Virus record (IMG/VR): IMGVR_UViG_3300009285_006822
Location: 1 to 40,480 of that record
DNA length: 40,480 nucleotides
Reading direction: 5' to 3' (one strand)
Source of the DNA: a virus
Shown here: positions 1 through 38,333 of the stretch, piece after piece
How the letters are laid out: every line of letters starts with the position of its first letter
How positions within the stretch are numbered: the stretch's first letter is position 1
The notes under the pieces: generated by a model
The model's input: only the letters and a program-made list of their open reading frames with translations
What the model was told of the DNA's origin: nothing
Database searches by the model: none
Program-made: the position numbers and the translations under genes

Positions 1-2
1 TT

Positions 3-815
3 AAAGCCCTCGGCATAGGCCAAGGCGATGAGGTTATCACAGTATCGCATACTTCATCAGCGACAATCTGCGCTATCAGGATGACAGGGGCAATGCCTAT
101 CTATACGGACATCGAGGAGAGGAGTTACCTGATCAACCCTGACTTGATCAAACCGACCAAGAAAACAAAGGCGATAGTCCCTGTCCATCTTTACGGCGGG
201 ATGTGCGATATGGCGCAGATTGGGAAGTTCGGGTTGCCTATCGTTGAAGATTGCGCGCAGTCGGTAGGTGCAGGCAACCTTTATGGCAAAGCCGGAGCTT
301 ATTCATTCTATCCCACAAAGAATCTCGGCGGTATCGGTGATGGAGGTTGCGTGATAACTGACAGCAGGACTCTCGCCCATAAAGTCAGAGCAATGAGGGA
401 ATACGGCTACGAGGAACGTTTCATCAGCAAGATAGATGGAATAAACTCCCGCCTCGATGAGATACAGGCGGCGGTCTTGCGCGTGAAACTTAAATATCTC
501 GATAAGGAATTAAAACGAAGATGGGACTTGGCGACATTCTATTGGGAAAATTTGAAGGATACGGATCTGATACTTCCCGAACTTAAAGGCACATTCCATC
601 AATATGTCATCCGGCATAAGAAGCGCGATGAGCTGGTCAAGGTCTTGGGCGCGCAGATACACTATCCCGTCCCGTGCCATTTGCAGCTGGCATATAAACA
701 GGAGATACATTTGCCCGTTACCGAAAAGGTATGCAAAGAGATCCTGAGTCTGCCGATGAAAATAGAAATTGATGAAGCAAAGGAAGTCTGTAAGAAAATA
801 AAGGAAATAATATGA
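3..815 (+). CDS. DegT/DnrJ/EryC1-type sugar aminotransferase, 5'-truncated
   Basis: The reading frame is open from base 3, so the start lies left of the window; the ATG at 81 is internal. The residues before it (GIGQGDEVITVSHTSSAT) match the usual N-terminal part of the family. The PLP-binding lysine is in SFYPTKNLG (codon 318-320). The family is PLP-dependent and aminates nucleotide-linked keto-sugars for surface glycans. The C-terminal end is the normal HYPVPCHLQ...LSLPM type region. It overlaps the next gene by ATGA, so it belongs to the same operon. The sugar substrate cannot be told from sequence alone. Confidence 0.92.
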   Translation, partial: KALGIGQGDEVITVSHTSSATICAIRMTGAMPIYTDIEERSYLINPDLIKPTKKTKAIVPVHLYGGMCDMAQIGKFGLPIVEDCAQSVGAGNLYGKAGAYSFYPTKNLGGIGDGGCVITDSRTLAHKVRAMREYGYEERFISKIDGINSRLDEIQAAVLRVKLKYLDKELKRRWDLATFYWENLKDTDLILPELKGTFHQYVIRHKKRDELVKVLGAQIHYPVPCHLQLAYKQEIHLPVTEKVCKEILSLPMKIEIDEAKEVCKKIKEII

Positions 816-2191
816 AAATAATTATCGCATGGCCGCCCATGACAAACCCGAAAGGATATTTGACAGGCGGACAAAATAGACAAGTGCAATTTTTACCTGA
901 TCCATTCTTCGCATATCCCATAATTCCCGCAATCGCGGCAACAATGTTAGCTATGAAAGGACATCAAGTCCTCTGGCTTGATTGCATTGCGGAGGAATTA
1001 AGCGAGGTGGACTTTGGCCGCATCATAATCCAATATAACCCTGATTATATCGTCTATGAGGCATCCACGCCTGTAATCAAGCGATACTGGGAGATTATCA
1101 ACGGCTTCAAGGACATCATGCCATCAATAAAACATATCCTTTGTGGCGAACATGTCAGCGCATTGCCGGATGAAAACAAGATAAACTGCAAAGTAGATCA
1201 TATTGTCTGCGGCGGCAAATGGTATAAGGATGTCTTTAAAATCGTGACCTGCAATGATTGGGAAGGTAATTTGCCATTGATAGACCGCAATCTGACGCGC
1301 TGGTGGCTCTATGCTTATAAGAATGGGAACTTCAAATATATCCCTGCAACTTATATCATGTCGGCGCAGGATTGCTGGCATGGCAAATGTTCCTTTTGTT
1401 CTTGGGCCGAATATCATAAAGATTATTTTGTGCGTCCTGTCGATGAGGTCTTAAAAGAAGTCGAGCTTTTGATAGAGGCCGGTTTCAAGGAGATATTCGA
1501 TGACAGCGGGACATTTCCTACCGGCGACTGGCTGCGGGAGTTCTGCGAGAAAGTCATCTATCGCAAATATGGGGATTACATTTCCTTCGGAGCTAATATG
1601 CGCTTCGGTGCGTTGAGTGTCGATGATTTTAAACTGATGAGCAAAGCGGGTTTTAGGATGATACTATGGGGAATGGAGAGCGTCAATCAGGTTACGCTTG
1701 ATAAATTAAACAAGGGCTATCAGGTTAAATCTATTATGCAGGATTTGATACTTGCCAAAGCCGCGGGGTTACAAAGCCATCTGGCCGTTATGTTCGGTTA
1801 TCCCTGGGAAAGTTATGAGGAAGCCAAGAGGACTTATAATATGACGCGCTGGCTCTTAAAGAAGGGATGGGCCTTTTCAGCTCAAGCGACTATCTGTATT
1901 CCATATCCCATAACCCCGCTCTGGAAATACTGCAAGGAAAACAATCTCTTATTGACGGAGGATTGGTCGCGTTATGACATGAGTGAGCCAGTAATGAAAA
2001 TTCCTTATTCAACCAAACAGTTATTCGCTTTAAGAGACGGGATTTATAATATCGCCTGGCATCCGGAATTCATCCTGCGGAAGTTAATACAGGTAAGAAG
2101 CATCGAGGATATAAAATATTATTTCAGGATAGGGCAGAAGATCTGTGATAGGGCGGGGCAATTTTTTGAAGTAGGAAAAGCGCATGATTAA
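812..2191 (+). CDS. radical SAM protein with N-terminal B12-binding-like domain (1)
   Basis: 459 residues. The N-terminal ~150 residues look like the Rossmann-type cobalamin-binding domain of B12 radical SAM enzymes (GHQVLWLDC near the start), without an obvious DxHxxG motif. The cluster motif is C188-WHGK-C193-SF-C196, four residues between the first two cysteines instead of the usual three; check this by alignment. A TIM-barrel region follows with FGANMRFGAL and ILWGMESVN. Known relatives do methylations or rearrangements in sugar, lipid or phosphonate pathways. Starts by ATGA overlap with the aminotransferase. Substrate unknown. Confidence 0.82.
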   Translation: MKIIIAWPPMTNPKGYLTGGQNRQVQFLPDPFFAYPIIPAIAATMLAMKGHQVLWLDCIAEELSEVDFGRIIIQYNPDYIVYEASTPVIKRYWEIINGFKDIMPSIKHILCGEHVSALPDENKINCKVDHIVCGGKWYKDVFKIVTCNDWEGNLPLIDRNLTRWWLYAYKNGNFKYIPATYIMSAQDCWHGKCSFCSWAEYHKDYFVRPVDEVLKEVELLIEAGFKEIFDDSGTFPTGDWLREFCEKVIYRKYGDYISFGANMRFGALSVDDFKLMSKAGFRMILWGMESVNQVTLDKLNKGYQVKSIMQDLILAKAAGLQSHLAVMFGYPWESYEEAKRTYNMTRWLLKKGWAFSAQATICIPYPITPLWKYCKENNLLLTEDWSRYDMSEPVMKIPYSTKQLFALRDGIYNIAWHPEFILRKLIQVRSIEDIKYYFRIGQKICDRAGQFFEVGKAHD

Positions 2192-2906
2192 GGATATGGT
2201 TTCTATTATCATCCCGACAACTTTAAAAGAAGCAATGTCTGCGCATGAATGTGCTGAAAGCATTAGGCGTTCTACTTATAAAAATGTAGAGATATTTATA
2301 ATCTGCGAAAATAAAGAGCGTTCTATTCAGCGCAATATAGGTATAGGTAAGGCAAAAGGGCAATATCTATTATTCATTGACAGCGACCAACGTGTCCAGC
2401 ACGATATGATAGCCGACTGTGTCAACCGCATAAAATATTTCGGCGGTATCTATATCCCTGAAATTGTAATGGGCGATGACTGGTTTGCCAAATTGAGGAA
2501 TTGGGAGAGACAATTCTATATCAGCACTCCCGTAGATGTATGCCGGTTCGTGCGTGCTTATCAATGCCCTAAATTTTCGGAGGAACTTTCGGGACCGGAA
2601 GACAGCGATTGGGATAGAAGGATACAAGGTGGCAAAACAATAAGCAAATCCTGCGTATATCATTATGAGAACGTATCTCTTTGGCAGTGGCTTCGGAAGA
2701 AAAGTTATTATGCCCGATCTATGGATAGGTTCGCTATGCACAATCCTGGCGACAAGGTACTTGACTGGAAATGGAGATGCTGGGGCGTGTTCACAGAAAA
2801 TGGGAAATGGAAAAGGTTTTTCACCAAGCCTCATTATGCTTTGGCTGTGTTAACTTTAATCCTAATCAGGGGAATTATCTACTTATGCGTAGCCAAATCC
2901 TCGTAA
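2184..2906 (+). CDS. GT2-type glycosyltransferase
   Basis: 240 residues. N-terminal MVSIIIPT strand, then CENKERSIQRNIGIGKAKGQYLLFIDSD, typical of a GT-A fold. The metal/nucleotide-sugar motif is D66-S67-D68. The acceptor part contains GPEDSDWDRRI, like the ED-type catalytic region of GT2 enzymes. The C-terminus ends with a hydrophobic stretch (ALAVLTLILIRGIIYL) that may anchor it to the inner membrane. It overlaps the radical SAM gene upstream and the next glycosyltransferase downstream. Expected role: transfer of a sugar to a lipid-linked or surface glycan; donor unknown. Confidence 0.87.
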   Translation: MIKDMVSIIIPTTLKEAMSAHECAESIRRSTYKNVEIFIICENKERSIQRNIGIGKAKGQYLLFIDSDQRVQHDMIADCVNRIKYFGGIYIPEIVMGDDWFAKLRNWERQFYISTPVDVCRFVRAYQCPKFSEELSGPEDSDWDRRIQGGKTISKSCVYHYENVSLWQWLRKKSYYARSMDRFAMHNPGDKVLDWKWRCWGVFTENGKWKRFFTKPHYALAVLTLILIRGIIYLCVAKSS

Positions 2907-3832
2907 TTACGCCGTTTTCGCCCTTAAATTTGGGCGGAGCTGAGACTTTCGCTTCAGATTTGATGAATGAGTCTCGCAAGAGCCATTCGGTCAACCTGGT
3001 GTCAATCAGGGGCAAAATCGTGAATTGGAAAGGCCTGCCTTTCGGCAAGGCCCTATTCATCATCCCGGAGTTGTTCTTTAAGGGATTAAACATGTGTCTG
3101 AGAAACAGGACCAAGACCATCGTTGCCCTTGGCCTTATTGCCGGCATGACTGGAGTATTACTCAAGTCCATATTTAGGACAAGGTTGCTCATCATTCCTC
3201 TTGCTATCTATAATTTCAAGGACAGGCCGTTCTTTTCGGTAATATCTGGATTGGTATTAAGACAGGCTGACATGATATTCTGCGAGAGCAACATTTCCCG
3301 CAATGACCTATATTATACCGGCATCCAATGGCGCAAAACAGAGCTATTCACGCATTGGGTAGATCAGACGAAATTCTTCCCAATTGAGCATGAGAACGCA
3401 CATCTGAAAGTTTTGTTCGTAGGTCGCCCGATACCAGAAAAAGGTAAGCATATAATTCAGGAAGTCGAAAAAGAGTTATGGGAGGTGGACTTTGAATATG
3501 TTGAAGATGTTAAATACGAAGACCTGCCGCGCCATTATCAGATGGCTGATGTTCTCGTTGTGCCTTCTGTCTACAATGAGTCTCCTAACCGGATTGTGGT
3601 GGAAGGCGCGGCTTGCGGGTGTGTGGTGATAGTAAGCGACAAGGGTGCATTGCCGGAACAGGTCGGCGGTTTCGGGATTATAACGAAACCTGCTCCTAAA
3701 TATTTTAAGTATCATATCGCGGTATTGGCTTCAGATAGGAAAAAATTAAAAACATTCAGGGAGATAACGATAAGATATGCGCAGGAGCATTTCACCGAAC
3801 GGAACGCACAAACCATAATGAGGGAATTTTGA
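2885..3832 (+). CDS. GT4-type glycosyltransferase (1)
   Basis: 315 residues from the ATG at 2885, chosen because MRSQILVITPFSPLNLGGAET is the normal N-terminus of a GT-B retaining glycosyltransferase; the longer frame upstream only runs through the GT2 gene. The C-terminal half has FVGRPIPEKGKH and the nucleotide-sugar site VPSVYNESPNRIVVEGAACG, including the E-x7-E-like motif. Overlaps the GT2 gene by 22 bases. Donor and acceptor cannot be read from sequence. Confidence 0.88.
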   Translation: MRSQILVITPFSPLNLGGAETFASDLMNESRKSHSVNLVSIRGKIVNWKGLPFGKALFIIPELFFKGLNMCLRNRTKTIVALGLIAGMTGVLLKSIFRTRLLIIPLAIYNFKDRPFFSVISGLVLRQADMIFCESNISRNDLYYTGIQWRKTELFTHWVDQTKFFPIEHENAHLKVLFVGRPIPEKGKHIIQEVEKELWEVDFEYVEDVKYEDLPRHYQMADVLVVPSVYNESPNRIVVEGAACGCVVIVSDKGALPEQVGGFGIITKPAPKYFKYHIAVLASDRKKLKTFREITIRYAQEHFTERNAQTIMREF

Positions 3833-5160
3833 AAATAGCGTTTGTATGTTGTGAGGATATTCAATTAGGGCCCGCCTATATTATAACCCATCTTAAAAAA
3901 CAAGGCCACGATGTCCGGCTGTTCTTTAGCCCAAGACAATTTGACAGAGGTTACGCAAGGAATAAATTCTTGGCGAGATTATTGAGCCTTGATAATTATA
4001 TCATTCACAAAATAGAGAAATTCAATCCCGATAAAGTTTTATTTTCTCTCGTAACGGCAACTTATCGTTGGAATTTACAGATGGCCGAGAGGATTAAAAA
4101 GAAATTGCCGACAACAAAGATAATCTTCGGCGGTGTGCATTCGACGCTCGTTCCCGATGAAGTCAAGAGCCATTCATTTATTGATGAGGTAATTGTAGGC
4201 GATGGGGTTGAGCATTTTGGTGGAGTGTTCGACCCTGATAATCTCTGGCCGGACAGGGATATATTCTTCAAGGAACTTCCGAGCTACCATAGGAAATACC
4301 AGTTATTCATGACATCGTTCGGCTGTCCCTATGCGTGTAGTTATTGCGCAAACGAGGAATTGAGAAAACATTATGACCGCAAACTGATAAAGCGTTCGGT
4401 CGAAGGTTGCATAAAAGAACTGAAATATCTAAAAGAAAGGGGAATGAAATATGTCTTATTTGTGGATGATATTCTTTGTGTTGATCGTGAGTGGCTACGT
4501 GCTTTTGCTATTGCTTATAATTCTGCCATTAACCTGCCTTTTTGCTGTTTTGGGCATCCTAAATTTCTGGATGAGGAGATTATTAAGACCCTCAAGGAAA
4601 TGGGTTGCGAGATGGTATGGATAGGCATCCAGACCGGCGCCGAGCAGTTGAGGAAGGATATTCTTAACCGGCCTGAAACTAATGATGAGATAAAGGCCGC
4701 TTGCGCACTCATCAAGAAATACAATATGAAATTGATGATAGACCATATCTTCGGCCTTCCCTATGAGAGCGAGATGACCAATGACTTCTCGACAGTATTC
4801 TATTCGGAATTAAAACCCGATGTTGTCAATTGTTATGAATTGCTTTATTTCCCGAAGGCGAAGATAATAAATCATGCGATTAAATTCGGTTATCTGACTT
4901 TGGCTGATGTGCCGAAGATTGAACGCGGAGAGATGCTCCAGTATCATACCGGCAATAGGGGGAATTTCTTCTATGACATCTACCATAAGCCGATGGTCGT
5001 TATCCCATTAGGCAATGTAACATGGGAATTGCTGCCGACATGGTTAGTAAAGCTGATTATTTATATCCGCGCGGGCAGGGCGTTCATCCCGATAGTAATG
5101 ATACAGAATGAAATATATTTCACTTGGAAAGCAATATTAAAAAAAGGGAGGTTGATATGA
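3829..5160 (+). CDS. radical SAM protein with N-terminal B12-binding-like domain (2)
   Basis: 443 residues. Start is a TTG at 3829 overlapping the stop of the preceding gene (TTGA). The N-terminal half (MKIAFVCCEDIQLGPAYI ... KIIFGGVHSTLVPDEV) is the B12-binding-like fold seen in BchE-type enzymes. The 4Fe-4S motif is canonical: C166-PYA-C170-SY-C173. LFVDDILC and WIGIQTGAE are typical barrel motifs. It is a paralogue in type, not a close copy, of the enzyme at 812-2191. Probably modifies a glycan or phosphonate intermediate; the reaction is unknown. Confidence 0.87.
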   Translation: MKIAFVCCEDIQLGPAYIITHLKKQGHDVRLFFSPRQFDRGYARNKFLARLLSLDNYIIHKIEKFNPDKVLFSLVTATYRWNLQMAERIKKKLPTTKIIFGGVHSTLVPDEVKSHSFIDEVIVGDGVEHFGGVFDPDNLWPDRDIFFKELPSYHRKYQLFMTSFGCPYACSYCANEELRKHYDRKLIKRSVEGCIKELKYLKERGMKYVLFVDDILCVDREWLRAFAIAYNSAINLPFCCFGHPKFLDEEIIKTLKEMGCEMVWIGIQTGAEQLRKDILNRPETNDEIKAACALIKKYNMKLMIDHIFGLPYESEMTNDFSTVFYSELKPDVVNCYELLYFPKAKIINHAIKFGYLTLADVPKIERGEMLQYHTGNRGNFFYDIYHKPMVVIPLGNVTWELLPTWLVKLIIYIRAGRAFIPIVMIQNEIYFTWKAILKKGRLI

Positions 5161-5312
5161 AAAAATATTATCGTAAATGTCCATTCTGTAAAAAAATAGG
5201 TCAATATAGTTGGAAGAAAGGTCAAGATAAGGAATTTGATAAAATTGCTAAATGCCTCGATTGTTTTAGAAAATATGGTTATATTGTATGCTCTACGGAA
5301 AAACCATCATGA
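5157..5312 (+). CDS. small zinc-ribbon protein
   Basis: 51 residues from the ATG at 5157, which overlaps the upstream stop as ATGA and follows an AGGGAGG Shine-Dalgarno. Two CxxC knuckles (CPFC and CLDC, about 25 residues apart) suggest one structural zinc. It is A/T-richer than its neighbours, like other small genes in this arm. Function not recognised; it resembles the many small phage zinc-ribbon proteins. Confidence 0.7.
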   Translation: MKKYYRKCPFCKKIGQYSWKKGQDKEFDKIAKCLDCFRKYGYIVCSTEKPS

Positions 5313-6049
5313 AAGAATATTCCAAGCAATTCTATAAAAACATCAGTCGCCCGATAGTCCGGTTCTTCATCAAGGCGCATATCACGGCTAATCAGATTAC
5401 GGTATTCAACATATTCTTTATGACCTTCGGCGCGGGATATTTCTTTGCGATAGGCCGGTTCTGGCTTGCCCTCCTCGTCTGTGGATTATCGGCTATGCTC
5501 GATTATGCGGATGGCGATGTTGCGAAGGCTACAAGCGGTTATACTCCTGCCGGAAAGTGGATAGATACATTCGGCGACATTATAAAGCAGAACGGAATAA
5601 TGGGCGCGATAGCGGTAGGCACGGGGATGCCGCCTTTAATCATCGTGATATTCTTTGTGTCAAATGCCGCCTTGAACGTAATCAGCTTTCACTACAATAG
5701 TACTTTCGGGTTTGACAGCTATACCGGCAATGAGTTGTTCCGTAAATATATGGATATGAAACCGACTTTGCTTAACAAGGCACTAAAGAATATCATTGAC
5801 CCGACATCATCGTGGATCGGGCTTATCTTTGGCACGGTGCGCTACTTCATCGTAATAGGGATAATCTTCGGCATACTTCCGATTATGTTTTATGTCATCA
5901 CTACAATCGATGTATTCAAGGCGATATTCATGTTCGCAATTTATGCTCTACATTTAGCCGAGTATAAGAAACTCTGGCTTTGCCAGGCTTTAGCTATATT
6001 AGACAAGGAAAGGCAGGAGTTCTATCAAGTAAGAAACAAAGGAGACTGA
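5309..6049 (+). CDS. CDP-alcohol phosphatidyltransferase family membrane enzyme
   Basis: 246 residues from the ATG at 5309 (ATGA overlap with the zinc-ribbon gene). The family motif Dx2DGx2A(R)x8Gx3Dx3D is seen as D65-YA-DG-DV-AK, then G-KWI-D-TFG-D; the usual Arg after Ala is Lys. Several hydrophobic helices follow. Family members transfer a phospho-alcohol from a CDP-activated donor to another alcohol within the membrane. With a cytidylyltransferase-like gene and PEP mutase-like gene in the same operon, a CDP-linked or CMP-phosphonate donor is a reasonable inference, but not shown. Confidence 0.88.
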   Translation: MKEYSKQFYKNISRPIVRFFIKAHITANQITVFNIFFMTFGAGYFFAIGRFWLALLVCGLSAMLDYADGDVAKATSGYTPAGKWIDTFGDIIKQNGIMGAIAVGTGMPPLIIVIFFVSNAALNVISFHYNSTFGFDSYTGNELFRKYMDMKPTLLNKALKNIIDPTSSWIGLIFGTVRYFIVIGIIFGILPIMFYVITTIDVFKAIFMFAIYALHLAEYKKLWLCQALAILDKERQEFYQVRNKGD

Positions 6050-6050
6050 A

Positions 6051-6233
6051 ATGGATATGTTGATAGGGTTAGCGGCATTGGTTATAATGGGCTGTCTTTA
6101 TTTCCTGCCCGCTATCGTGGGAAGGAAGAAAAGGAATTATAACGCGATACTCATACTGAACCTGCTTCTCGGATGGACACTGATTGGATGGGTAATCGCA
6201 TTGGTCTGGGCGACTTGTAAGGATAAGGAGTGA
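6051..6233 (+). CDS. superinfection immunity protein (T4 Imm-like family)
   Basis: 60 residues with two membrane segments: a first helix in ALVIMGCLYFLPAIVG and a second in LNLLLGWTLIGWVIALVWA. The YFLPAI...RKKRN...LNLLLGWTLIGWVIALVWA layout is the signature of the superinfection immunity family to which T4 Imm belongs. In T4 it blocks entry of DNA from a second phage at the inner membrane. Its place inside a surface-glycan operon suggests a shared purpose of excluding competing phages. Similar small proteins also occur in bacterial genomes, so a phage role is inferred. Confidence 0.85.
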   Translation: MDMLIGLAALVIMGCLYFLPAIVGRKKRNYNAILILNLLLGWTLIGWVIALVWATCKDKE

Positions 6234-6236
6234 AAT

Positions 6237-6614
6237 ATGAGCAAGGGATATTGCGCGGTAGCGGCAGATATACTTCACGTTGGGCATATAAACTTCATAA
6301 GGAAATGCTGGTTTATGTGCAATGATCTCACGGTGGGCGTGATGTCGGATGATTGCATCAAGAAATATAAAGGCGAATCTCCTGTCATGTATGAACAGGA
6401 CAGAATGGAGATAATACGGAGCTTGAAATATGTCAAGGATGTTATATTGCAGGACACTTTCGAGCTTCCCTCGCATGAATGTTATGATTTTATCTTCGAT
6501 TCCATGGAACACCAACGCAAAGGTGCGGATTGCTACCTACCACTAACAGAAGGTATCAGCAGCACCATAATCAAGGAGCGGATAATTGAAGCCAGCAGAA
6601 ATAGAATTAAATAA
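6237..6614 (+). CDS. cytidylyltransferase-like nucleotidyltransferase
   Basis: 125 residues, the usual size for TagD/TarD-type enzymes. The HxGH motif is H14-V-G-H17 (ADILHVGHINFI); SPVMYEQDRMEII fits the conserved middle part, and GISSTIIKERI resembles the C-terminal ISSTxIxxRI motif. Such enzymes activate glycerol-3-phosphate, choline phosphate or phosphonates with CTP. It lies 3 bases after the Imm-like gene and close to the CDP-alcohol phosphatidyltransferase, which would use a CMP-activated donor. Substrate not determinable. Confidence 0.88.
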   Translation: MSKGYCAVAADILHVGHINFIRKCWFMCNDLTVGVMSDDCIKKYKGESPVMYEQDRMEIIRSLKYVKDVILQDTFELPSHECYDFIFDSMEHQRKGADCYLPLTEGISSTIIKERIIEASRNRIK

Positions 6615-7152
6615 ATTCTTCGCATTCGCAGGTCTTAAGAAAGGCGATGTGGTCTGGGATTTCGGCTGCGGGGATGGCAGGTTTATATCCCCATTAAATA
6701 ATATGGGATGTAAAGTTTATTATACGGATAGGAAATCATCAAATCCCGCACCGGCAGAGAAAGTCGATAAATTCCTATTGTCCTGCGTCCTGCATTATAA
6801 CGATCTTACCGACAAAGCATTTATCCTGTTAACCGCCTATGGTAGCCTGAAAATCGGCGGACAGATAATCATAATTGAACCGAATCCTTTTAACCCGTTC
6901 TTCTACTGCCTCTACTTCTGGCGGTGGTTAAGAAGAAGTAAATGTGAGAGAAGATGGACTGCCGAGAAATATATGTTCTCACGCGCGAAACTCATCAAGA
7001 TACTGAAGATGACAGGATTTAAGAATATAGAGTGCCGAAAATATGCCTGGTTTCCATCAAAGTTCGGTTGGCTTAAATTAAATGAGGCACTTAACAAGAT
7101 ACCCATAATCAATATATTCAATGCGTTTAACTGGGTGAAAGCCCAAAAATAA
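6586..7152 (+). CDS. class I SAM-dependent methyltransferase
   Basis: 188 residues. TTG start at 6586 inside the end of the preceding gene, preceded by AAGGAG. Motif I is VVWDFGCGDGRF near residue 25; GGQIIIIEPNPFNPF matches the post-III strand of UbiE/Methyltransf_11-like enzymes. The C-terminus (MFSRAKLIKILKMTGF) is also typical. Probably methylates a sugar or lipid intermediate of the same pathway. Reaction unknown. Confidence 0.83.
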   Translation: MKPAEIELNKFFAFAGLKKGDVVWDFGCGDGRFISPLNNMGCKVYYTDRKSSNPAPAEKVDKFLLSCVLHYNDLTDKAFILLTAYGSLKIGGQIIIIEPNPFNPFFYCLYFWRWLRRSKCERRWTAEKYMFSRAKLIKILKMTGFKNIECRKYAWFPSKFGWLKLNEALNKIPIINIFNAFNWVKAQK

Positions 7153-7163
7153 AAGGAGGAGGT

Positions 7164-7415
7164 ATGTTTAAGTTTGAGTTGGGTAATAAAGTAAAAGATA
7201 TTATTACGGGATTTGAAGGAATAATTATGGCGCGTGTTGAGTATTTTACAGGATGTAATCAATATGGGATAACTCCGCAAAAGTTAACTAAAGAAGGAAA
7301 ACGTCCTGATTGGGAATATGTTGATGAAAATCGTCTTAAGAAATGTGGAAAAAAAATATCTTTAAATCCAAGACAGGACGATGGATTTGATGGGGATAAT
7401 CCTCCTTCAATATGA
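7164..7415 (+). CDS. small phage-type protein of unknown function
   Basis: 83 residues, ATG after a strong AAGGAGGAGG site. The pattern GNKVKDIITGFEGIIMARVEYFTGCNQYGI is one I recognise from small proteins of many phages and prophages, with a KOW-like beta-strand start. No function is known. It is more A/T-rich than the glycosyltransferase that follows by ATGA overlap. It supports a phage origin for this arm. Confidence 0.75.
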   Translation: MFKFELGNKVKDIITGFEGIIMARVEYFTGCNQYGITPQKLTKEGKRPDWEYVDENRLKKCGKKISLNPRQDDGFDGDNPPSI

Positions 7416-8410
7416 AAATCCTCATCATTGCCAACGCGCGTTATAAAGACGGTTTATCGGGAAGTGATAATATCTACTTGCATTTCGCCGAAAATTGGAA
7501 GGAGGTTGAGGTATGGGATAAGATGGGCGTGGAATTCAAGCCCTTCACAATTTGCTATATCAACCGAGTGCTAATTGGTTGCTGTCAGGCCATATTTTGC
7601 GGCAGGAGATATGACTTCATCTATTCGGCGAGCGACTTCTGGCCTGACAGTTTACCTGCTTTTATACTTAAATTAAAAGGCAATAAGTGGGTCGCAGGTT
7701 TCTATCTTTACGCTCCTAAGGAAAATAAGATTTATTACTGGTCGCAGAAATTAACTCGCTGGCTCATCAATAAATATGCGGATGTAGTCTGTGTCACGAA
7801 TGGCTCCCTGTCGTGGGGTTTCAAAGGTAAGAAGATAATCGAAGTCAACGGCGGGGTTGATTTATCTTTGGCCGGAGATGACAATAAGCCGAAGATGTAT
7901 GACGCAGTATTCTGCGGACGGCTTCATTATACAAAAGGAATAGATGAACTTATAGCCATTTGGGATTTAGTGATAAAAGAAAAGCCCGATGCGAAACTTG
8001 CCATCATCGGCGCAGGAGATACGGAAGAAGTGAAACTCTTTAATTGGATGAAAGGCAAGGAAAGCGTTATTTATCTGGGCTATATGGGTAATGAACGCTT
8101 CGATGTTTATAGACAGAGCAAATTCGTCCTTTATCCCACGCCGGTTAAATATGACCATTTCTCGATGGCTCCCGTTGAGGTGATGGCCTGCGGATGTCCG
8201 ATGATTGCCTTCGACCTGCCGGTAATGGAATATATCAAGCCGAAGGGATGGTATTGCGCCAAGTCAATCGAGGACTTCGCGCACTTTATTACATCTTTCA
8301 AATATTATGACATAATGCGAAGGGATGCGATAAGATGGGCGCAAACCTGGGATTGGAAGATAACGACAGCAAGAGTTTATGGGGAGATAACCAAATGTCT
8401 AAAATATTAG
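7412..8410 (+). CDS. GT4-type glycosyltransferase (2)
   Basis: 332 residues starting by ATGA overlap. N-terminal MKILIIANARYKDGLSGSDN fits a GT-B acceptor domain. The donor domain shows FCGRLHYTKGIDELIAIW and LYPTPVKYDHFSMAPVEVMACG, the E-containing nucleotide-sugar motif of the GT4 group. It shares type, but little obvious sequence, with the enzyme at 2885-3832. The next gene overlaps its last 16 bases. Likely adds one residue to the surface glycan. Confidence 0.87.
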   Translation: MKILIIANARYKDGLSGSDNIYLHFAENWKEVEVWDKMGVEFKPFTICYINRVLIGCCQAIFCGRRYDFIYSASDFWPDSLPAFILKLKGNKWVAGFYLYAPKENKIYYWSQKLTRWLINKYADVVCVTNGSLSWGFKGKKIIEVNGGVDLSLAGDDNKPKMYDAVFCGRLHYTKGIDELIAIWDLVIKEKPDAKLAIIGAGDTEEVKLFNWMKGKESVIYLGYMGNERFDVYRQSKFVLYPTPVKYDHFSMAPVEVMACGCPMIAFDLPVMEYIKPKGWYCAKSIEDFAHFITSFKYYDIMRRDAIRWAQTWDWKITTARVYGEITKCLKY

Positions 8411-9258
8411 TGACCGGCGGCAACGGGATGCTCGGAAGCGCGGTAAAGGAAGTGTTCAAGGATGATGACTTGATATTGACCGACATCGATACCTTAGATG
8501 TCAGGGATTATAAGCAAGTGATGGCTTACGGAGATCTCAAGCCCGAACTCATAATGCACCTCGCCGCCTTGACCGACCTTGAATATTGCGAAAGGTATCC
8601 GGCTGATGCGTATATGACCAATCATACCGGTACTGTCAATGTGATGCTATTGGCAAGACAACTCGCTATCCCAATGGTATTTATAAGCACTGCGGGGATA
8701 TTCGACGGCAAAAGAATATCTTTTTCCTATGATGATTATGATATTCCAAACCCAATAAATAATTATGGTCGGAGCAAGTATTTTTCTGAAATGGCACTTA
8801 AAAATTACGATAAGGTATGGACATTCCGGGCAAGTTGGATGATGGGTGGCGGGCCGGGGAAGGACAAGAAATTCATAAACCTCATTTATAACCAGATAAA
8901 ATCGGGCAGAACCGAGATATTTGCCCTTGATGATACCGTTGGAAGCCCGACATATACTTTCGACTTGGCGAACACAATAAAAAACGTGATAGATAAAAAA
9001 GCCGATTACGGGGTTTATAACTGCGCCGGAGAAGGCGCGGCTTCAAGATACGACATTGCAAAGCTGATAATTGAAATCTTAAAGCCCGAAATAAAGATCA
9101 TCCCCGTCAAAGATAATTTCTTCAAGAATATTTTTGCCTGCCCGCGCTCAAAAGGCGAAGTCCTTGAAAATTATAAACTCAATAGATTGGGATTGTCGAA
9201 AATGCGTTCTTGGAACGAAACAGTAAAGGAGTATATCGAAAAATGCTATATGCCCTGA
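8395..9258 (+). CDS. RmlD-like dTDP-4-dehydrorhamnose reductase / NAD-dependent epimerase
   Basis: 287 residues from the ATG at 8395, chosen because MSKILVTGGNGMLGSAV is the standard Rossmann start; the longer frame is an overlap with the previous gene. The glycine-rich loop is GGNGMLG, the catalytic pair is Y124-GRS-K128, and DDTVGSPTYTFDLAN matches the C-terminal RmlD region. It probably reduces a 4-keto nucleotide sugar or epimerises a sugar for the glycan. A precise rhamnose role is not proven since RmlA/B/C are not seen in the window. Confidence 0.88.
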   Translation: MSKILVTGGNGMLGSAVKEVFKDDDLILTDIDTLDVRDYKQVMAYGDLKPELIMHLAALTDLEYCERYPADAYMTNHTGTVNVMLLARQLAIPMVFISTAGIFDGKRISFSYDDYDIPNPINNYGRSKYFSEMALKNYDKVWTFRASWMMGGGPGKDKKFINLIYNQIKSGRTEIFALDDTVGSPTYTFDLANTIKNVIDKKADYGVYNCAGEGAASRYDIAKLIIEILKPEIKIIPVKDNFFKNIFACPRSKGEVLENYKLNRLGLSKMRSWNETVKEYIEKCYMP

Positions 9259-10694
9259 TCTGGATATTTATTGTCTGGCATTATGCGCTGCGTTGCGGGT
9301 TTATATCCGATGACCATGCCGTTATAGCCCAACGTAAGGATATAATTCCCGACGGGGAGAAGAACCCCCTCAAAAAAACTTATTGGGTGGATGTCTTTGA
9401 TCAGGGTATAATATTGTTCTATCTTAACCGCATATTTGATTTTCTGCATATACGCAAATATCCCTTCTTCTGGCATCTCTTGCTCCTTATAATCCATTTG
9501 ATGAACTGCTGGTTATTGTTTAAATTGCTTATCCCGATAATCGGGCCGGACATAGCTCTTATAGCCGTTTTCATCTGGGCGGTAAACCCGATGCTCAATC
9601 AAGCAGTCGTCTGGATAAGCGGACGGCCTTACAGCATAGCGATGATGCTATGTCTTATTGCGATGCTCAACTGGCAGCAACCCTTTATATTCCTGCCGCT
9701 CTATGCGCTCGCGGTGATAACAAATGTCTCGATAGTCTTTGTTCCGGCGTTAGTCAGGATGCTTCATCCGTCCTGGCAGGGGAATCTGTATCTTATCCTC
9801 GTGTTCCTTATCGCAGCCCCGATCGTCGCGTGGAAATTCAAGCAGCGTTTCTCAAAGGCCCTCGTCATTGATAGGGAGAATTTCAGGTGGAGAAATAGAA
9901 GGATAAATAATCTCGTCCGCGTCTACGCCTATTATGTCTGGACACTCATCGTTCCGGTAAGAATGGGTTGGTATCATCAGGCGGGTTTCCGCTATAACCC
10001 CAAATGGGATAAGTTCAATATCTGGACTTTAGTCGGTTATATCCTCGTATTCCTTCTGATAAAACAGGGCCCCTTCGGATGGTGGTTTCTCCTGGGGTTA
10101 CTGCCGAATATGAATATCGTCGTCACCAATTCTTTCGTGCAGGATAGATATGTTTATTTTGGTTCAGTGGGTCTTGCGGTTATCATAGCCCCACTGCTCT
10201 ACCAATACCCAATGCTTGCCATTATGGCTCTGACCTTTTACGGCACGCGCTCATATATGTTCTCGAGGCAGATGGTTAATGATGAGGCAATGTATCGTGA
10301 GAACTGGCGCAACCATCCCAATTCCGATTACGCGGTAAACAACCTTTCATTCTTCCTCATCCAGCAGAAACGCTATGACGAGGCCCGTGTCATAATTTTA
10401 AGGGCTTTGACATTCGCCCGCGATAACAAGATGCTCTGGTACAATTTGGGCGTTACCTGGGCCACGCAAGGCAACCTCAATACCGATGAGGGCAAATTCC
10501 GCTTCCTTCGCGCGGTAGATGCCTGGAAGATGTGCCTGCAATTAGAGCCGCGTTGGCGCAAACCGGCTGAAGACCTTGAGAAACTCATCAAATTTCTGAT
10601 TGATAACAAAGTCATCACGATGAACAAGGACGACGCGAACCCCAACATCCCGCAGATAGACATACCGATGATAGGAGACTTGGGAAAGACATGA
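9243..10694 (+). CDS. polytopic membrane protein with C-terminal TPR-like region (GT-C-like)
   Basis: 483 residues from the ATG at 9243. About the first 330 residues are strongly hydrophobic with many predicted helices. The N-terminal loop has GFISDDHAV, an acidic pair as in GT-C glycosyltransferases that use polyprenyl-phosphate sugars. The C-terminal ~130 residues are soluble and TPR-like (NNLSFFLIQQKRYDEARVII, then MLWYNLGVTWATQGN). This layout resembles bacterial TMTC/DUF1736-type proteins. Inferred role: transfer of a lipid-linked sugar outside the membrane. Confidence 0.72.
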   Translation: MLYALIWIFIVWHYALRCGFISDDHAVIAQRKDIIPDGEKNPLKKTYWVDVFDQGIILFYLNRIFDFLHIRKYPFFWHLLLLIIHLMNCWLLFKLLIPIIGPDIALIAVFIWAVNPMLNQAVVWISGRPYSIAMMLCLIAMLNWQQPFIFLPLYALAVITNVSIVFVPALVRMLHPSWQGNLYLILVFLIAAPIVAWKFKQRFSKALVIDRENFRWRNRRINNLVRVYAYYVWTLIVPVRMGWYHQAGFRYNPKWDKFNIWTLVGYILVFLLIKQGPFGWWFLLGLLPNMNIVVTNSFVQDRYVYFGSVGLAVIIAPLLYQYPMLAIMALTFYGTRSYMFSRQMVNDEAMYRENWRNHPNSDYAVNNLSFFLIQQKRYDEARVIILRALTFARDNKMLWYNLGVTWATQGNLNTDEGKFRFLRAVDAWKMCLQLEPRWRKPAEDLEKLIKFLIDNKVITMNKDDANPNIPQIDIPMIGDLGKT

Positions 10695-11158
10695 AAACTA
10701 ACTGGATGCATTTTGAATTGTGGCTTGATAAGGATTACTGGAAAGACAGGGAAAAGAACAATGAATATTTATTGCATTATTTGGCCGATATATATTCACG
10801 AATTTATCTTTATGCGGATAAGATATTCTACTTATTCGAGCCGAATCCACACCTGTTTTTGGCTATCCGCTTGCATAGGCAAAAAGATTATAATGAGGTA
10901 GTCAAAATAATAAGGCGTTGGAAATGGCAAATGCCTAAATTCGTGGAAAATTATAAATTCAAGAAAAATACCAAAGACGGCAATAATGCCGAAGGGTTCA
11001 TTTATATCATGGATGCCATCACGAAATATAACCTTATTTACCGGCAGAAAGACATTGAGTTGGGGCATCTTATTCATTGCATTTTAAACAATATGGGATT
11101 AAGGACTGATAAGGAGAAGTTTTTCTACAAGCTCATGTCGAGGATATGGAAAATATGA
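10691..11158 (+). CDS. hypothetical protein
   Basis: 155 residues, ATGA overlap with the preceding gene. Rich in Trp, Tyr and Lys, mostly helical in appearance, with no signal peptide or membrane helix. I do not recognise the family. It is co-transcribed with the glycan genes and overlaps the nitroreductase-like gene. Confidence 0.7.
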   Translation: MKTNWMHFELWLDKDYWKDREKNNEYLLHYLADIYSRIYLYADKIFYLFEPNPHLFLAIRLHRQKDYNEVVKIIRRWKWQMPKFVENYKFKKNTKDGNNAEGFIYIMDAITKYNLIYRQKDIELGHLIHCILNNMGLRTDKEKFFYKLMSRIWKI

Positions 11159-11556
11159 ATTTATTTGAAGCAATAAATCAAAGAAGGTCAATAAGGAAAT
11201 TCTCCGATAAAGAAATCCCATATGAAATCTTGGCTTTTATAATCGAGATGGCTTATAAGATACCTTCGGCGGGAAATTTACGGCCTATTGAATTATTTTT
11301 TGTCAAGTTTGATAAGCCGCCGGCCTTTATTGTTGTCTGCGCTGACTTTGAAAAGACTACCGTTAAATACGGACAACGCGGGATCAGATATGTCTATATG
11401 GAAGCTGGACATACAGCGCAGAATATCTGCCTTGTCGCCACCGCTTTGGGACTTGGCTCTTGTTGCGTAGGAGCGTTTGATGAAAATGAATTTAAGAAAA
11501 AACATAATCTTCAATATGAACCAATCTATATGGTAGCGATAGGAGTGCCAAAATGA
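11146..11556 (+). CDS. nitroreductase-family protein, short
   Basis: 136 residues. INQRRSIRKFSDKEIP is the classic FMN-binding N-terminus of nitroreductases and KIPSAGNLRPIELFFV is the second conserved block; YMEAGHTAQNICLVATALGLGSCCVGAF is the third. It is shorter than usual (170-220 residues), lacking part of the middle. Start could be the ATG at 11146 or 11155; the latter gives MNLFEAINQRRS directly. Members are FMN-dependent oxidoreductases. Its role beside PEP mutase-like and dehydrogenase genes is unknown. Confidence 0.88.
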   Translation: MENMNLFEAINQRRSIRKFSDKEIPYEILAFIIEMAYKIPSAGNLRPIELFFVKFDKPPAFIVVCADFEKTTVKYGQRGIRYVYMEAGHTAQNICLVATALGLGSCCVGAFDENEFKKKHNLQYEPIYMVAIGVPK

Positions 11557-12323
11557 AAGTGATTTTGGTTTCAGCCGGTGATGCCATCACCGCCCGTCTT
11601 GTCGAGGAAGCAGGATTTGACGGAATATGGGTTTCCGGCTTCGAGGTATCCGCGCGCATGGGCCTGCCGGATAACGGAAGTCTTACAATGACCGAAATGC
11701 TCAATGTCTGCCGGCCCATTGTCGAAGCGGTCAGGATACCTGTTTATGTTGATGTTGATACCGGATACGGGAATTTCTCTAGGACGGTAAGGGAGTTCGA
11801 GCGAGCAGGCGCGAAAGGGGTCTGCGTCCAGGATGACATGCCCCACCTCAAGCAGAACTCCCTTTGGGGCGGCAAAACCCCGCTTATGGATATGAAAGAG
11901 TTCGCGCAAAAAATTGCTATAAAACGCAAAATAATGATAATCGCCAGAACAGAGGCCCTGATACGGGGTTACTTTTTGGAAGAAGCCCTCAAACGTGCCA
12001 GATATTATGCGAAACATGGCGCTGACGTAGTCCTTGTCCATACACGCGACCAGATAGGCAAAGAGGCCTGTAATGTGGCAAAGAACTTAAAATCGGGCAT
12101 AAAATTGGCTATCGTGCCGACCAAATTCCCCCATTTTACCAATAAGAGGCTATTTGATATAGGTTACTCAATGGTGATATGGGCCAACCAGACCGAGCGT
12201 TGCAAGATAAAGGCGATACGGCAAGCGCTCAAGATACTGAAGGCAGAGGACTGCGCGTATTCTGTGGAACTTGGGATGAGCGCCACACTTGACGACATGA
12301 AGAACCTGACACCGGAGGGATAA
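11553..12323 (+). CDS. phosphoenolpyruvate mutase / isocitrate lyase superfamily enzyme
   Basis: 256 residues, ATGA overlap. Family marks: AGFDGIWVSGFEVSARMGLPD near residue 25, VDVDTGYGNF near residues 64-71, VQDDMPHLKQNSLWGG at about 92-107, IIARTEALIRG, and VLVHTRD. The K-x-N-S at 100-103 is the feature that separates PEP mutases from isocitrate lyases. The usual EDK triad before it reads D94-D95-M96 if aligned from the NS. PEP mutase converts PEP to phosphonopyruvate, the first step of nearly all phosphonate synthesis. A C-C lyase of the same superfamily is the main alternative. Confidence 0.85.
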   Translation: MKVILVSAGDAITARLVEEAGFDGIWVSGFEVSARMGLPDNGSLTMTEMLNVCRPIVEAVRIPVYVDVDTGYGNFSRTVREFERAGAKGVCVQDDMPHLKQNSLWGGKTPLMDMKEFAQKIAIKRKIMIIARTEALIRGYFLEEALKRARYYAKHGADVVLVHTRDQIGKEACNVAKNLKSGIKLAIVPTKFPHFTNKRLFDIGYSMVIWANQTERCKIKAIRQALKILKAEDCAYSVELGMSATLDDMKNLTPEG

Positions 12324-12324
12324 A

Positions 12325-12501
12325 ATGATATTGGATAAAAAAGAATTGGCTTTGATTATGGCGGAATTGGGAAAAGAAACTAAACAGGGGAAAGATGAAG
12401 AATATAAACGTGCTTATATTGATGGCATATTGGATTTTTATAATCGGGCCACGAAGAAATTAGAAGAACCTGCGGAGGCGAAAGATGTTGATAGTCCATA
12501 G
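12325..12501 (+). CDS. small hypothetical protein
   Basis: 58 residues, ATG at 12325 right after an ACCGGAGGG Shine-Dalgarno and directly following the PEP mutase-like stop. Charged and helical (KELALIMAELGKETKQGKDE). It overlaps the start of the dehydrogenase gene by 17 bases. Unrecognised; the size and composition fit the small phage-type genes in this arm. Confidence 0.65.
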   Translation: MILDKKELALIMAELGKETKQGKDEEYKRAYIDGILDFYNRATKKLEEPAEAKDVDSP

Positions 12502-13261
12502 CTCGTCAACGAAGTATTATGCGGAAATAATCCAATCACAGAAAGGTGGGATACTCTATGAGGTTACAAGTCCGCCCACAATAGAAACCCTTAAAATCCT
12601 GACCATAGAGAAGGAGATCATCGCCGTCGGCGGCGGTTCGGTAATCGACACCGCCAAGATTATCGGTATCCATTCAAAAGCGAAGGTTTATGCCATACCG
12701 ACTACCGCAAGCGGCGCGGCAATGACGCCTTGGGCTACGATCTGGAATACCGAGAAAATCTCAATCCCCACACAGATACCGGAACTTATGAATGATTATT
12801 ACGGCATGTCAAAATTCCTGCCTGATAAAGTTAGAATATCAACCCAGTATGACTGCCTGTCGCACATGGTCGAGAGTTGGTGGTCAAATAACACCACCCT
12901 TGAAAGCAAGCAATTTGTCATGAAGGCGACGGAATTCATGCGAGACTATAATGAGGAAGGCAACCTTAATGATCTGATTGATGCTGGTAACTGGGCAGGG
13001 AAAGCTATTGCCATAACACAGACCAATATCATTCATGCCTTATCATACGGCCTGACGATAAAATACGGACTGGATCACGGTTCAGCATGCGGGATATTCT
13101 TTTGGCCGGTAGTCAAGCAAATGAATTATCTGCATTGGTTGCCGAAAATTGAGAGGATAGAATTTGATTATGACGCGGAATGGGTTGTTGAGGAGGCGCT
13201 CAAATACCGGAAGGCAGAGGGTTACCTGACGAGAGAGGAATTACTTGATGTCTTGGTCTAA
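12485..13261 (+). CDS. iron-containing alcohol dehydrogenase family protein, short
   Basis: 258 residues against the usual ~370. AVGGGSVIDTAK (about residues 47-58) is the NAD(P)-binding motif and AIPTTASGAA follows. Metal ligands are suggested by YDCLSH and by the two histidines in NIIHALSYGLTIKYGLDHGSACG. Regions between domains are shortened. In phosphonate pathways the PhpC/FomC type reduces phosphonoacetaldehyde to 2-hydroxyethylphosphonate. The neighbouring PEP mutase-like gene favours this, but no phosphonopyruvate decarboxylase is in the window. Confidence 0.83.
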   Translation: MLIVHSSSTKYYAEIIQSQKGGILYEVTSPPTIETLKILTIEKEIIAVGGGSVIDTAKIIGIHSKAKVYAIPTTASGAAMTPWATIWNTEKISIPTQIPELMNDYYGMSKFLPDKVRISTQYDCLSHMVESWWSNNTTLESKQFVMKATEFMRDYNEEGNLNDLIDAGNWAGKAIAITQTNIIHALSYGLTIKYGLDHGSACGIFFWPVVKQMNYLHWLPKIERIEFDYDAEWVVEEALKYRKAEGYLTREELLDVLV

Positions 13262-32971: not shown

Positions 32972-33011
32972 AAAAAAATAAGGGCCACCCGCATCCTTGT
33001 GCGGATAGCCC
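32972..33011 (-). terminator. intrinsic terminator-like hairpin before the late genes (possible attenuator)
   Basis: On the minus strand GGGC (33008-33011, outer) and TGCGG/CCGCA (33000-33004 with 32989-32993) form a stem, then GCCC and a run of U (32972-32978 are A on the plus strand). It is oriented for minus-strand transcripts. No minus-strand gene lies further right in the window, so it must sit between the late promoter and the first late gene. Confidence 0.68.
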
Positions 33012-33053
33012 ATTCTTGTGGGGCCTCTTAATACTTAAAATCTTATCGGCTAA

Positions 33054-33114: not shown

Positions 33115-33143
33115 TTGACAAACATTGTTTTATAGTGTATATA
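33115..33143 (+). promoter_or_regulatory. sigma70-type early promoter
   Basis: TTGACA (33115-33120), 17 bases, TATATA (33138-33143). Expected start about 33150, which falls inside the GCATACT repeat. It feeds the RHH gene, whose Shine-Dalgarno is AAAGGAGG at 33157-33164. Confidence 0.82.
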
Positions 33144-35385: not shown

Positions 35386-35415
35386 TTGACAGGTAAATGA
35401 GCAATATGTTATATT
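35386..35415 (+). promoter_or_regulatory. strong sigma70-type promoter
   Basis: TTGACA (35386-35391), 18 bases, TATATT (35410-35415). Transcription should start near 35422, a few bases before the GGGAGG at 35428. It lies between the HTH gene and the replication gene. Confidence 0.85.
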
Positions 35416-35427
35416 ATAGGCACAAAC

Positions 35428-35569
35428 GGGAGGTTGTAAGATAAATGAACCGGATAAACGTAAGTAAGGACGGGAAAGAGATCCCGTCTTTTTTATTATC
35501 CCTATCAGGTGCTTACACCTCCCAAGATGCAAGCAGAACAAATGTTCAGCCTGATAGGGATAATTTTTT
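35428..35569 (+). ncRNA. structured leader RNA of the replication gene
   Basis: After the promoter: GGGAGGTTGTAAG (35428-35440); a terminator hairpin (35469-35494); then ATTATCCCTATCAGG (35495-35509) paired perfectly with CCTGATAGGGATAAT (35550-35564) and followed by a T-run. The 40-base loop holds TGCTT/AAGCA (35510-35514; 35531-35535) and GAAC/GTTC (35536-35539; 35544-35547). CTTACACCTCCC (35512-35523) complements the GGGAGG stretch with one bulge. This suggests a three-way-junction RNA with a long-range interaction. A 51-codon frame (35445-35600) also exists. Confidence 0.72.
35469..35494 (+). terminator. intrinsic terminator in the leader
   Basis: GACGGGA (35469-35475) and TCCCGTC (35482-35488), loop AAGAGA, followed by TTTTTT (35489-35494). 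A canonical Rho-independent terminator, standing between the strong promoter and the replication gene. Transcription of the gene needs readthrough. Confidence 0.85.
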
Positions 35570-35580
35570 AAGGGGAAATA

Positions 35581-36282
35581 ATGCGCTGGTTCAAGCATAG
35601 CACAAATAGTTTTGATGATATTAAGCTCAAAAAACTGCGCCGGAAGTTTGGGTTCTTGGCCTATGGACTATGGTTCTATTTGCTGGAAACGGTCGCCAAG
35701 GACGGAAAAGACTGTTGTTTGCCTTTAGACAAACTTTCTCCTGAAGATATGTCAAAAGATACTGAAATTGAAGTAGAAAAAATTAAGGAAATGATACTTG
35801 AAATGTGTAACGTAACCCTAATAAATAAAGAACGCTATATAAAAGATAAGGTTATATTTGTCCCTCAATTTGTTGGATACTATGACGATTATTCAAATAG
35901 AGTTCGGAGAGAGTTCGGAGAGAGTTCGGAGAAAGTCGCTAAGAATAGAGAAGAAGAGAATAGAATAGAGAAGAATATAGTAGATATATGGAACGCTACT
36001 TCTTTGCCTAAAATCTTCACCTTTTCACAGGAACGGAAAAGACACTTAAAGGAACGAATTAAAAACAAGCATTTCGTTGAAAATTATGCTGCCACGATTA
36101 AAAAAATAGCCGAAAGCGACTTCTGCAACGGCAAAGTGAACGGCAAGGAATGGAAAGCTACCGTTGACTGGTTTATAGCCAACGACAACAATTATGTTAA
36201 GGTTCTTGAGGGTAAGTATGATAACCGCGCCGATCCTGAAGCTCTGCGAAAGCAGTTCGGCCTTAAACCGGAGAACAAATAA
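35581..36282 (+). CDS. phage replication initiator / replisome organiser-like protein
   Basis: 233 residues after AAGGGGA. N-terminal MRWFKHSTNSFDDIKLKKLRRKFG is the DUF4373 (Lin1244/Lin1753-type) domain; the C-terminal ANDNNYVKVLEGKYDN end and the KHFVENYAATIKKIAESDFCNG block are typical of phage replisome organisers. The linker between them holds the iterons. Expected to bind the origin and load helicase. Confidence 0.87.
   Translation: MRWFKHSTNSFDDIKLKKLRRKFGFLAYGLWFYLLETVAKDGKDCCLPLDKLSPEDMSKDTEIEVEKIKEMILEMCNVTLINKERYIKDKVIFVPQFVGYYDDYSNRVRREFGESSEKVAKNREEENRIEKNIVDIWNATSLPKIFTFSQERKRHLKERIKNKHFVENYAATIKKIAESDFCNGKVNGKEWKATVDWFIANDNNYVKVLEGKYDNRADPEALRKQFGLKPENK
35901..35975 (+). repeat. 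iterons and A-rich repeats, candidate replication origin
   Basis: Three direct repeats of 11 bases: AGTTCGGAGAG at 35901-35911 and 35912-35922, AGTTCGGAGAA at 35923-35933. 11 bases is about one helix turn and not a codon multiple, so this is not a protein repeat. Then AATAGAGAAGAA twice (35944-35955; 35964-35975) in a purine-rich A/T stretch, a likely unwinding element. Lambda carries its origin inside the O gene in the same way. Confidence 0.8.
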
Positions 36283-37205: not shown

Positions 37206-37342
37206 CTATGAGTAAAGAGATTAAAACATATTTAAGTAAAATCGGACGCAAAGGTGGTAAATCGCGCTCGGATAAAAAAATCAGTGCTTCAAGGGAGAAC
37301 GGAAAACTCGGTGGTCGCCCAAAAACTACAAAGAAGTTATAA
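37202..37342 (+). CDS. small basic protein with GRKGG / GGRPK motifs
   Basis: 46 residues, ATGA overlap. MTMSKEIKTYLSKIGRKGGKSRS then NGKLGGRPKTTKKL. I recognise this small basic pattern from phage and mobile-element contexts; a nucleic-acid-binding role is likely. Its end overlaps the TnpB start. Confidence 0.65.
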   Translation: MTMSKEIKTYLSKIGRKGGKSRSDKKISASRENGKLGGRPKTTKKL

Positions 37343-38333
37343 GTTAAAACTTTATGCCAATAAATCGAAGCTGGACACCGCTCGCTATACCAACCTTCGC
37401 TTTAATCAATATATGAATATTTTTTTGGGTAGGATTTTCTTTGGGCAAGATAAGATCTCTACAAAGGGGATGGGAACACTAGCTAACCAAGCAAAATATA
37501 AATCTCATAAAATGGTCAAGGGATTGAAACGTCTAAACAGAAAAGAAGGCGTTAAGATAAATGTTCCTTATGCCATAAACCAATCTAATTATGCCAAAAT
37601 AGAAAAATCAAAAGATAGTAGATTCGATTATTGGGTTAAGGTTTCAAATCAATGGACAAAAGCAAAGATGGTTGCTATTCCTGCTAAATCTCATAAGGTA
37701 TTGAATAAAGCGTTAAAAGACGGGTGGAAACTTTCCGGAAATTGTAAAGTCAAGTTTATAAATAATAATGTCTATGCTATTGTGTTTTTATCTAAGGCTG
37801 TTCCTGTTATTAAAATTCCAAACAAAATAATAGGATGTGATGTAGGTATCATCCATTCTGTCGTAACTTCCGATGGATATAAAGGGCACGGATTATCTCG
37901 TGTTATAAGAACACAAAAACGAAGGTATGCAGAGAGAAGAAGGCAAGGACATAAAGTTTCAAAAAAAGTAAAGACGTGTGTTAAGCAAATTCTCGACAGG
38001 GAGGCTAAGGGAGTTATCAGACGTTCTGTAAACCTCGGCGTCGGTATCGCTGTTGAGAGCCCGAAACGGCTTGCTAATCTGCGGAGCGGAAATCTTCAAG
38101 GATGGGCAAGGAGTTGCTTTGCTAACCGACTCGAAATTTTGGGCAAGGAAAATGGAGTTAAGATCATAAGGATAAATCCTTATCAAACTTCTATTACTTG
38201 CTCGAAATGCGGTGTCGTGGATAAAGAGAGCAGAGATGATAGGATATTTAACTGCGTTTCCTGCGGTCATATTGCACACGCAGATGTAAATGCGGCAATA
38301 AATATCTCTAATCTTGGAAGGGCAACCCTATGA
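37311..38333 (+). CDS. tnpB: TnpB-type RuvC nuclease (IS605-family OrfB)
   Basis: 340 residues from the GTG at 37311 (MVAQKLQRSYKLKLYAN), chosen since RSYKLKLYAN is the usual TnpB start; the frame is open further upstream. RuvC triad intact: D177 in CDVGIIHS, E249 in VESPKR, D325 in AHADVNAAI. Zinc finger CSKC ... CVSC before the last motif. No TnpA is seen. It is coupled to both neighbours (overlap at the start, ATGA at the end), leaving little space for separate transposon ends. Confidence 0.92.
   Translation: MVAQKLQRSYKLKLYANKSKLDTARYTNLRFNQYMNIFLGRIFFGQDKISTKGMGTLANQAKYKSHKMVKGLKRLNRKEGVKINVPYAINQSNYAKIEKSKDSRFDYWVKVSNQWTKAKMVAIPAKSHKVLNKALKDGWKLSGNCKVKFINNNVYAIVFLSKAVPVIKIPNKIIGCDVGIIHSVVTSDGYKGHGLSRVIRTQKRRYAERRRQGHKVSKKVKTCVKQILDREAKGVIRRSVNLGVGIAVESPKRLANLRSGNLQGWARSCFANRLEILGKENGVKIIRINPYQTSITCSKCGVVDKESRDDRIFNCVSCGHIAHADVNAAINISNLGRATL

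Follow-up and report, generated by a model that had tools for sequence, protein, structure and literature searches.

Probable function of a two-terminator leader upstream of a phage replication gene

How might an uncultivated phage control its replication initiator gene through the short segment that precedes it? We addressed this question at a locus in a phage record from IMG/VR that comprises 40,480 bases and has no terminal repeat; this whole stretch is called the window in the following. The initial annotation had proposed that the segment could be a riboswitch-like attenuator or an abundant small RNA. The attenuator, i.e., regulatory leader, part of this proposal is well supported by the anatomy: a promoter, a first terminator (T1), a second terminator-like stem (T2) and the Shine-Dalgarno sequence (SD) of the initiator gene are all present, together with near-equal, mutually exclusive folds. 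The riboswitch part, in the sense of ligand binding, has no support, with no Rfam match and no conserved aptamer. We put the probability at roughly 0.5 that the segment is a cis-acting, two-stage attenuator leader of the replication operon that is translationally coupled and also frees an RNA of about 75 nt.

The leader adjoins a replication initiator gene

Structural genes lie on the minus strand of the window and end by position 32917, and a rightward early region begins at 33170. The product of 49 amino acids encoded at 33170 looked ribbon-helix-helix-like by eye. Upstream of the leader, a gene for a 74-aa winged-helix protein has its stop at 35382; downstream, on the plus strand, follows the gene for the replication initiator (Rep, 35581–36282), the candidate controlled gene. 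Rep matched Pfam Lin1244_N with an E value of 1e-12, and its PHROGs profile matches were 'DnaD-like helicase loader' and 'replication initiation O-like'. The Rep ATG at 35581 is preceded by the SD AAGGGG (35570–35575), which adjoins the U-run of T2 (to 35569) without a gap.

Three tandem 11-bp repeats, TTCGGAGAGAG, are found within rep at 35892–35935 and are followed by a purine-rich stretch. They are iteron-like and may mark a replication origin inside the initiator gene, cf. lambda O. The early region also contains a TnpB-like gene (37254–38333) with a Cas12f1-like TNB domain (E 9e-19); upstream of it are a promoter-like site of its own at 37173 and a small basic ORF, and no TnpA was noticed nearby. 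Positions 1–13000 of the window hold a long block of glycosyltransferase, radical-SAM, epimerase and aminotransferase-like genes, as assigned by eye. The block is mostly conserved in the related phage G003 and is probably a phage-borne surface-glycan module.

A near-consensus promoter is followed by an intrinsic terminator

As annotated initially, the leader starts with a strong promoter. It reads TTGACA-18-TATATT with a TG before the −10 box (35386–35415, plus strand), i.e., it is near-consensus with 11 of 12 matches, and the expected transcription start is at about 35421. Its score ties for the top among 18 sites in the region from 33 to 40.5 kb, a region with no overall excess of promoter-like sites (18 vs 16.8 in shuffles). 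The 13-mer TATAYTATAGGCA at 35410–35422 recurs exactly at the head of the G003 late operon (L165:5725), a pattern picked after both sites had been seen. A scan of the minus strand from 35500 to 36150 for an antisense-RNA promoter found no promoter-like site.

The canonical terminator reported behind the promoter was likewise recovered. T1 (35466–35494, plus strand) has the core GACGGG-8 nt-CCCGTC and a U-run at 35489–35494, and its hairpin (35466–35491) comprises ten pairs and a loop of 6 nt. From these positions, an RNA ending at T1 is predicted to be about 75 nt long. The order of promoter, terminator and controlled gene that characterizes an intrinsic attenuator is present in the sequence.

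The second stem is unique in the window and its loop is complementary to the leader strand

An inverted-repeat search placed the two arms of the perfect 15-bp T2 stem at 35495–35509 and 35550–35564 on the plus strand, separated by 40 nt and followed by T's to 35569. Stem, loop and T-run hence agree with what had been described, and so do the two small loop hairpins, a GAAC-AAAU-GUUC hairpin and a second one in the T2 fold. T2 is the sole perfect 15-mer inverted repeat with a loop of up to 100 nt in the 40.5-kb window, and when the entire window was shuffled 60 times with dinucleotide composition kept, no inverted repeat of this quality arose. Because the U-run of T2 abuts the Rep SD and no promoter fits in between, transcripts of Rep, whether they start here or upstream, must pass both T1 and T2.

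The leader strand GGGAGGUUGUAAG (35428–35440, plus strand) contains the SD of a 51-codon ORF and is at the same time the 5′ strand of a leader-loop helix, of which CUUACACCUCCC in the T2 loop (35512–35523, plus strand) is the 3′ strand. The two strands are joined by 12 Watson-Crick pairs, interrupted by one bulged U, and the calculated duplex energy is −17.3 kcal/mol; when leader and loop were shuffled together 20,000 times, 12 pairs were never reached. The pairing of the loop with the upstream GGGAGG stretch had been noticed before, as had the resemblance of the loop to the 16S anti-SD, which is real (CACCUCC). This likeness is better explained as a strand masking the leader's own SD, because the complement extends beyond the SD into UUGUAAG.

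A perfect inverted repeat adjoining an initiator gene, with a TnpB-like gene 1.7 kb off, might also act at the DNA level as an origin hairpin, a recombination site or the remnant of a TnpB-type element. We consider this most improbable. The iteron-like repeats within rep are a better origin candidate, the T-run is found on the plus-strand side only, and three genes separate the stem from TnpB. Moreover, a DNA-level element would leave the leader-loop pairing unexplained.

Two predicted, mutually exclusive folds are close in energy

The whole leader of 158 nt folded with a z-score of −5.4, and none of 200 shuffles was equally stable. Enforcing either helix on 35418–35575, we obtained −52.1 kcal/mol for state A (leader-loop) and −50.3 kcal/mol for state B (T2), i.e., a predicted gap of less than 2 kcal/mol between folds that are mutually exclusive as nested structures. 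In state A, the T2 5′ arm is additionally engaged at its base by GGAUAA of the leader. The alternative folding expected of an intrinsic attenuator is thus predicted for T2, whereas T1 is present in both folds. On steric grounds, a pseudoknot combining both helices is conceivable.

When the RNA was lengthened stepwise, T1 folded first. At a 3′ end of 35524, the leader-loop helix closed over T1 (−43.5 kcal/mol) with the T2 3′ arm still unmade; with this arm out, at 35565–35572, the T2 fold was equal or slightly better, and upon inclusion of the Rep start region states A and B swapped rank again. Ensemble pair probabilities favoured state A with 0.94 vs 0.05 for T2, and T2 may therefore rarely form on the full-length RNA.

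Since two competing folds coincide with two transcription stops, the leader is probably an on/off gate for replication. RNA polymerase would start near 35421, T1 would probably halt most transcripts as the RNA of about 75 nt, T2 would halt a second set, and the remainder would reach Rep. In state A, the SD-bearing leader strand would pair with the T2 loop, leaving the SD masked and T2 opened, whereas in state B the 15-bp stem of T2 would form and leave the leader strand unpaired. Ribosomes loading on the leader ORF would melt T1 and T2 and hand translation to the overlapping Rep start. Once the full leader has been made, leader-loop pairing would block further ribosome loading.

A different use of the same parts would make the T1-ended RNA of about 75 nt the main product. 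Like IsrK, it would act in trans, either against the read-through mRNA from the same leader or against a different target, and T2 would be part of the target structure. The strong promoter about 75 nt ahead of the T1 end would suit such a module, the strand that can pair with the T2 loop of the long transcript is contained in the short one, and a duplex of the short RNA with the T2 hairpin would reach −30.3 kcal/mol if both unfold. The architecture also closely parallels that of IsrK (PMC4825925). However, co-folding with T2 already folded yielded no gain from binding (−49.8 kcal/mol bound or apart), and a homologue was not found. We regard a small RNA as main product as unlikely, if worth keeping in view.

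A 51-codon ORF encloses both hairpins

The 51-codon frame mentioned in the initial annotation exists at 35445–35600 on the plus strand. Both T1 and T2 lie within it, and its last 20 nt overlap the start of Rep in a different frame. Its codon score of −4.5 is below the 5th percentile (+1.2) of 50-codon in-frame stretches of this phage's genes, and the frame is hence unlike an ordinary gene and doubtful as a normal protein gene. The score is higher than the mean of out-of-frame stretches and above most of them. With about 11 nt, the spacing between the leader SD and the AUG exceeds the optimum.

An open frame that has an SD and an ATG and overlaps the Rep start could simply encode a 51-aa protein, with the hairpins coincidental. 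This appears scarcely credible for a frame that scores under at least 95% of this phage's gene stretches, has no family match and encloses a canonical terminator and a perfect 15-bp stem. A role as regulatory leader ORF is possible. Programmed frameshifting at an in-frame U UUU UUA heptamer (35489–35495), located ahead of the stem, was discarded as a candidate; the −1 frame stops inside T2 and misses Rep, whose frame is +1.

Terminators abutting an SD are common in related phages

Rfam covariance models, among them riboswitch, C4, isrK and P4-type models, gave 0 matches at gathering score in the window; the best match below threshold, Hammerhead_HH10 with 17.9 bits vs 75, was judged to be chance. 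Searches of the IMG/VR, phage and plasmid collections gave no homologue of the element. With the Rep protein as query, viral and genome contigs and phages yielded C-terminal relatives only, of at most 53% identity, and the leader was absent from the two viral loci among them. Searches via the flanking winged-helix gene, the upstream 297-aa gene and the downstream 150-aa gene found no element homologue. Exact leader, leader-loop and stem patterns had 0 matches in viral contigs, and blastn against phages and plasmids returned chance-length matches only. A mechanical search for hairpins flanked on both sides by a T-run, covering 1.7 Mb of related loci, gave scattered matches and nothing recurrent.

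G003 is the closest phage, with 78% terminase identity and conserved structural and glycan genes, and a search of it for the element gave no match. A G003 segment with promoter, terminator, stem with a 42-nt loop and small ORF (L164:3859–4207) was considered as a parallel and dropped, because a 54-aa frame contains its promoter and the stop of that frame precedes its T1.

Termination just upstream of gene starts is a habit of this phage group. Strong terminators abut an SD at the window's late operon (32980–33013, minus strand) and at the late (L165:5819–5855) and glycan (L164:12322–12357) operons of G003. Among 45 strong terminators in loci of related phages, 17 are located at most 40 nt from a start codon, a count that includes duplicates from near-identical contigs and doubtful TTG/GTG starts. 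SD-abutting terminators are ordinary in relatives, and the Rep leader is therefore less exotic; peculiar to it are the paired stops and the leader-loop complement.

The three SD-abutting terminators named above sit between promoter-like sequence and the first operon gene. TTTTTTATGGAGG is found at two of the three, and GGCCCCACA is common to both late leaders. ATAGTGTATA occurs exactly at three putative promoters in two related phages (window 33132–33141, L165:5719 and L164:12257) and might be an operator or promoter motif common to them, perhaps one for the 49-aa product encoded at 33170.

T1 and T2 might be plain promoter-proximal terminators that lower expression or obey antitermination, as at the other operons of the group, and the leader-loop complement would then be without a role. 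SD-abutting terminators at the phage's own late operon, at two G003 operons and in many relatives speak in favour of this explanation. We nevertheless hold it to be improbable, given a 12-bp complement equalled in none of the 20,000 shuffles and tandem stops, one with a 40-nt loop, that are absent at other operon heads.

Discussion

Our preferred reading, the two-stage attenuator, draws its roughly even odds from the non-random stem and complement, the exclusive folds, a leader-loop fold that precedes the T2 3′ arm, the lack of room for a promoter between T2 and Rep, the adjoining initiator gene and the terminators placed right before SDs at other operons of this phage and its relatives. Its main weakness is that no homologous element was found, the nearest phage included. 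The 40-nt T2 loop is unusual in an efficient terminator and also counts against it, as do the poor codon signal of the ORF, the SD spacing of about 11 nt and the dominance of state A.

At the IsrK/orf45/anrP locus of Gifsy-1, a short terminated RNA, a read-through mRNA and a coupled upstream ORF control an antirepressor, and the locus folds have −85.7 and −84.2 kcal/mol (PMC4825925). The Rep leader shares with it a promoter, a predicted short RNA to an intrinsic terminator, a predicted read-through mRNA and a small upstream ORF by a phage regulatory gene. In both, an early segment can pair with a segment beyond the terminator and the folds are exclusive, those of IsrK being about 1.5 kcal/mol apart. 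The Rep leader differs from IsrK in that its small ORF begins upstream of T1, a second terminator-like stem is present and the putative target is a replication initiator instead of an antirepressor; the two match neither in sequence nor through Rfam. The replication-operon leader of satellite phage P4 contains seqA, the CI RNA and seqC (described in PMC4825925). Complementary segments and premature termination in the leader of a phage replication operon are common to both, whereas the processed antisense CI RNA of P4 pairs with two sites and the leader described here has one complementary pair.

The ermK and tet(M) leaders are ribosome-mediated attenuators with a terminator in the leader ORF. 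Ribosome-mediated attenuation with a terminator inside a small leader ORF is also described for bmrB of B. subtilis (PMC4191407). As in these three, a small ORF with alternative stem-loops and terminators lies upstream of the putatively controlled gene; those three respond to ribosome-targeting drugs, and for the Rep leader we could name no such signal. In the lambda pR′-tR′ and HK022 put leaders, a promoter is followed by a terminator before the operon, an order also found here, but T1 has no put-like paired hairpins 5′ of it and no antiterminator protein was identified. On paper, the leader would work like IsrK, P4 and bmrB, and we do not claim its membership in any of them.

Rather speculatively, one leader strand could combine three roles, as SD of the coupling ORF, as competitor of the T2 stem and, within the RNA of about 75 nt, perhaps as a regulator acting in trans on the read-through mRNA of the same leader. 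This would be an immunity or copy-control RNA similar to IsrK or P4, of independent origin and acting on a Lin1244/DnaD-type initiator; we give this idea little weight.

C4/IsrK-type RNAs control antirepressors. For RNA control of phage replication initiation, to our knowledge, few systems are known in detail, P4 being the chief one. The Rep leader is small enough for reporter tests. If our reading is true, finding a compact leader in an uncultivated phage that follows this logic without sequence relationship would suggest that such switches arise repeatedly.
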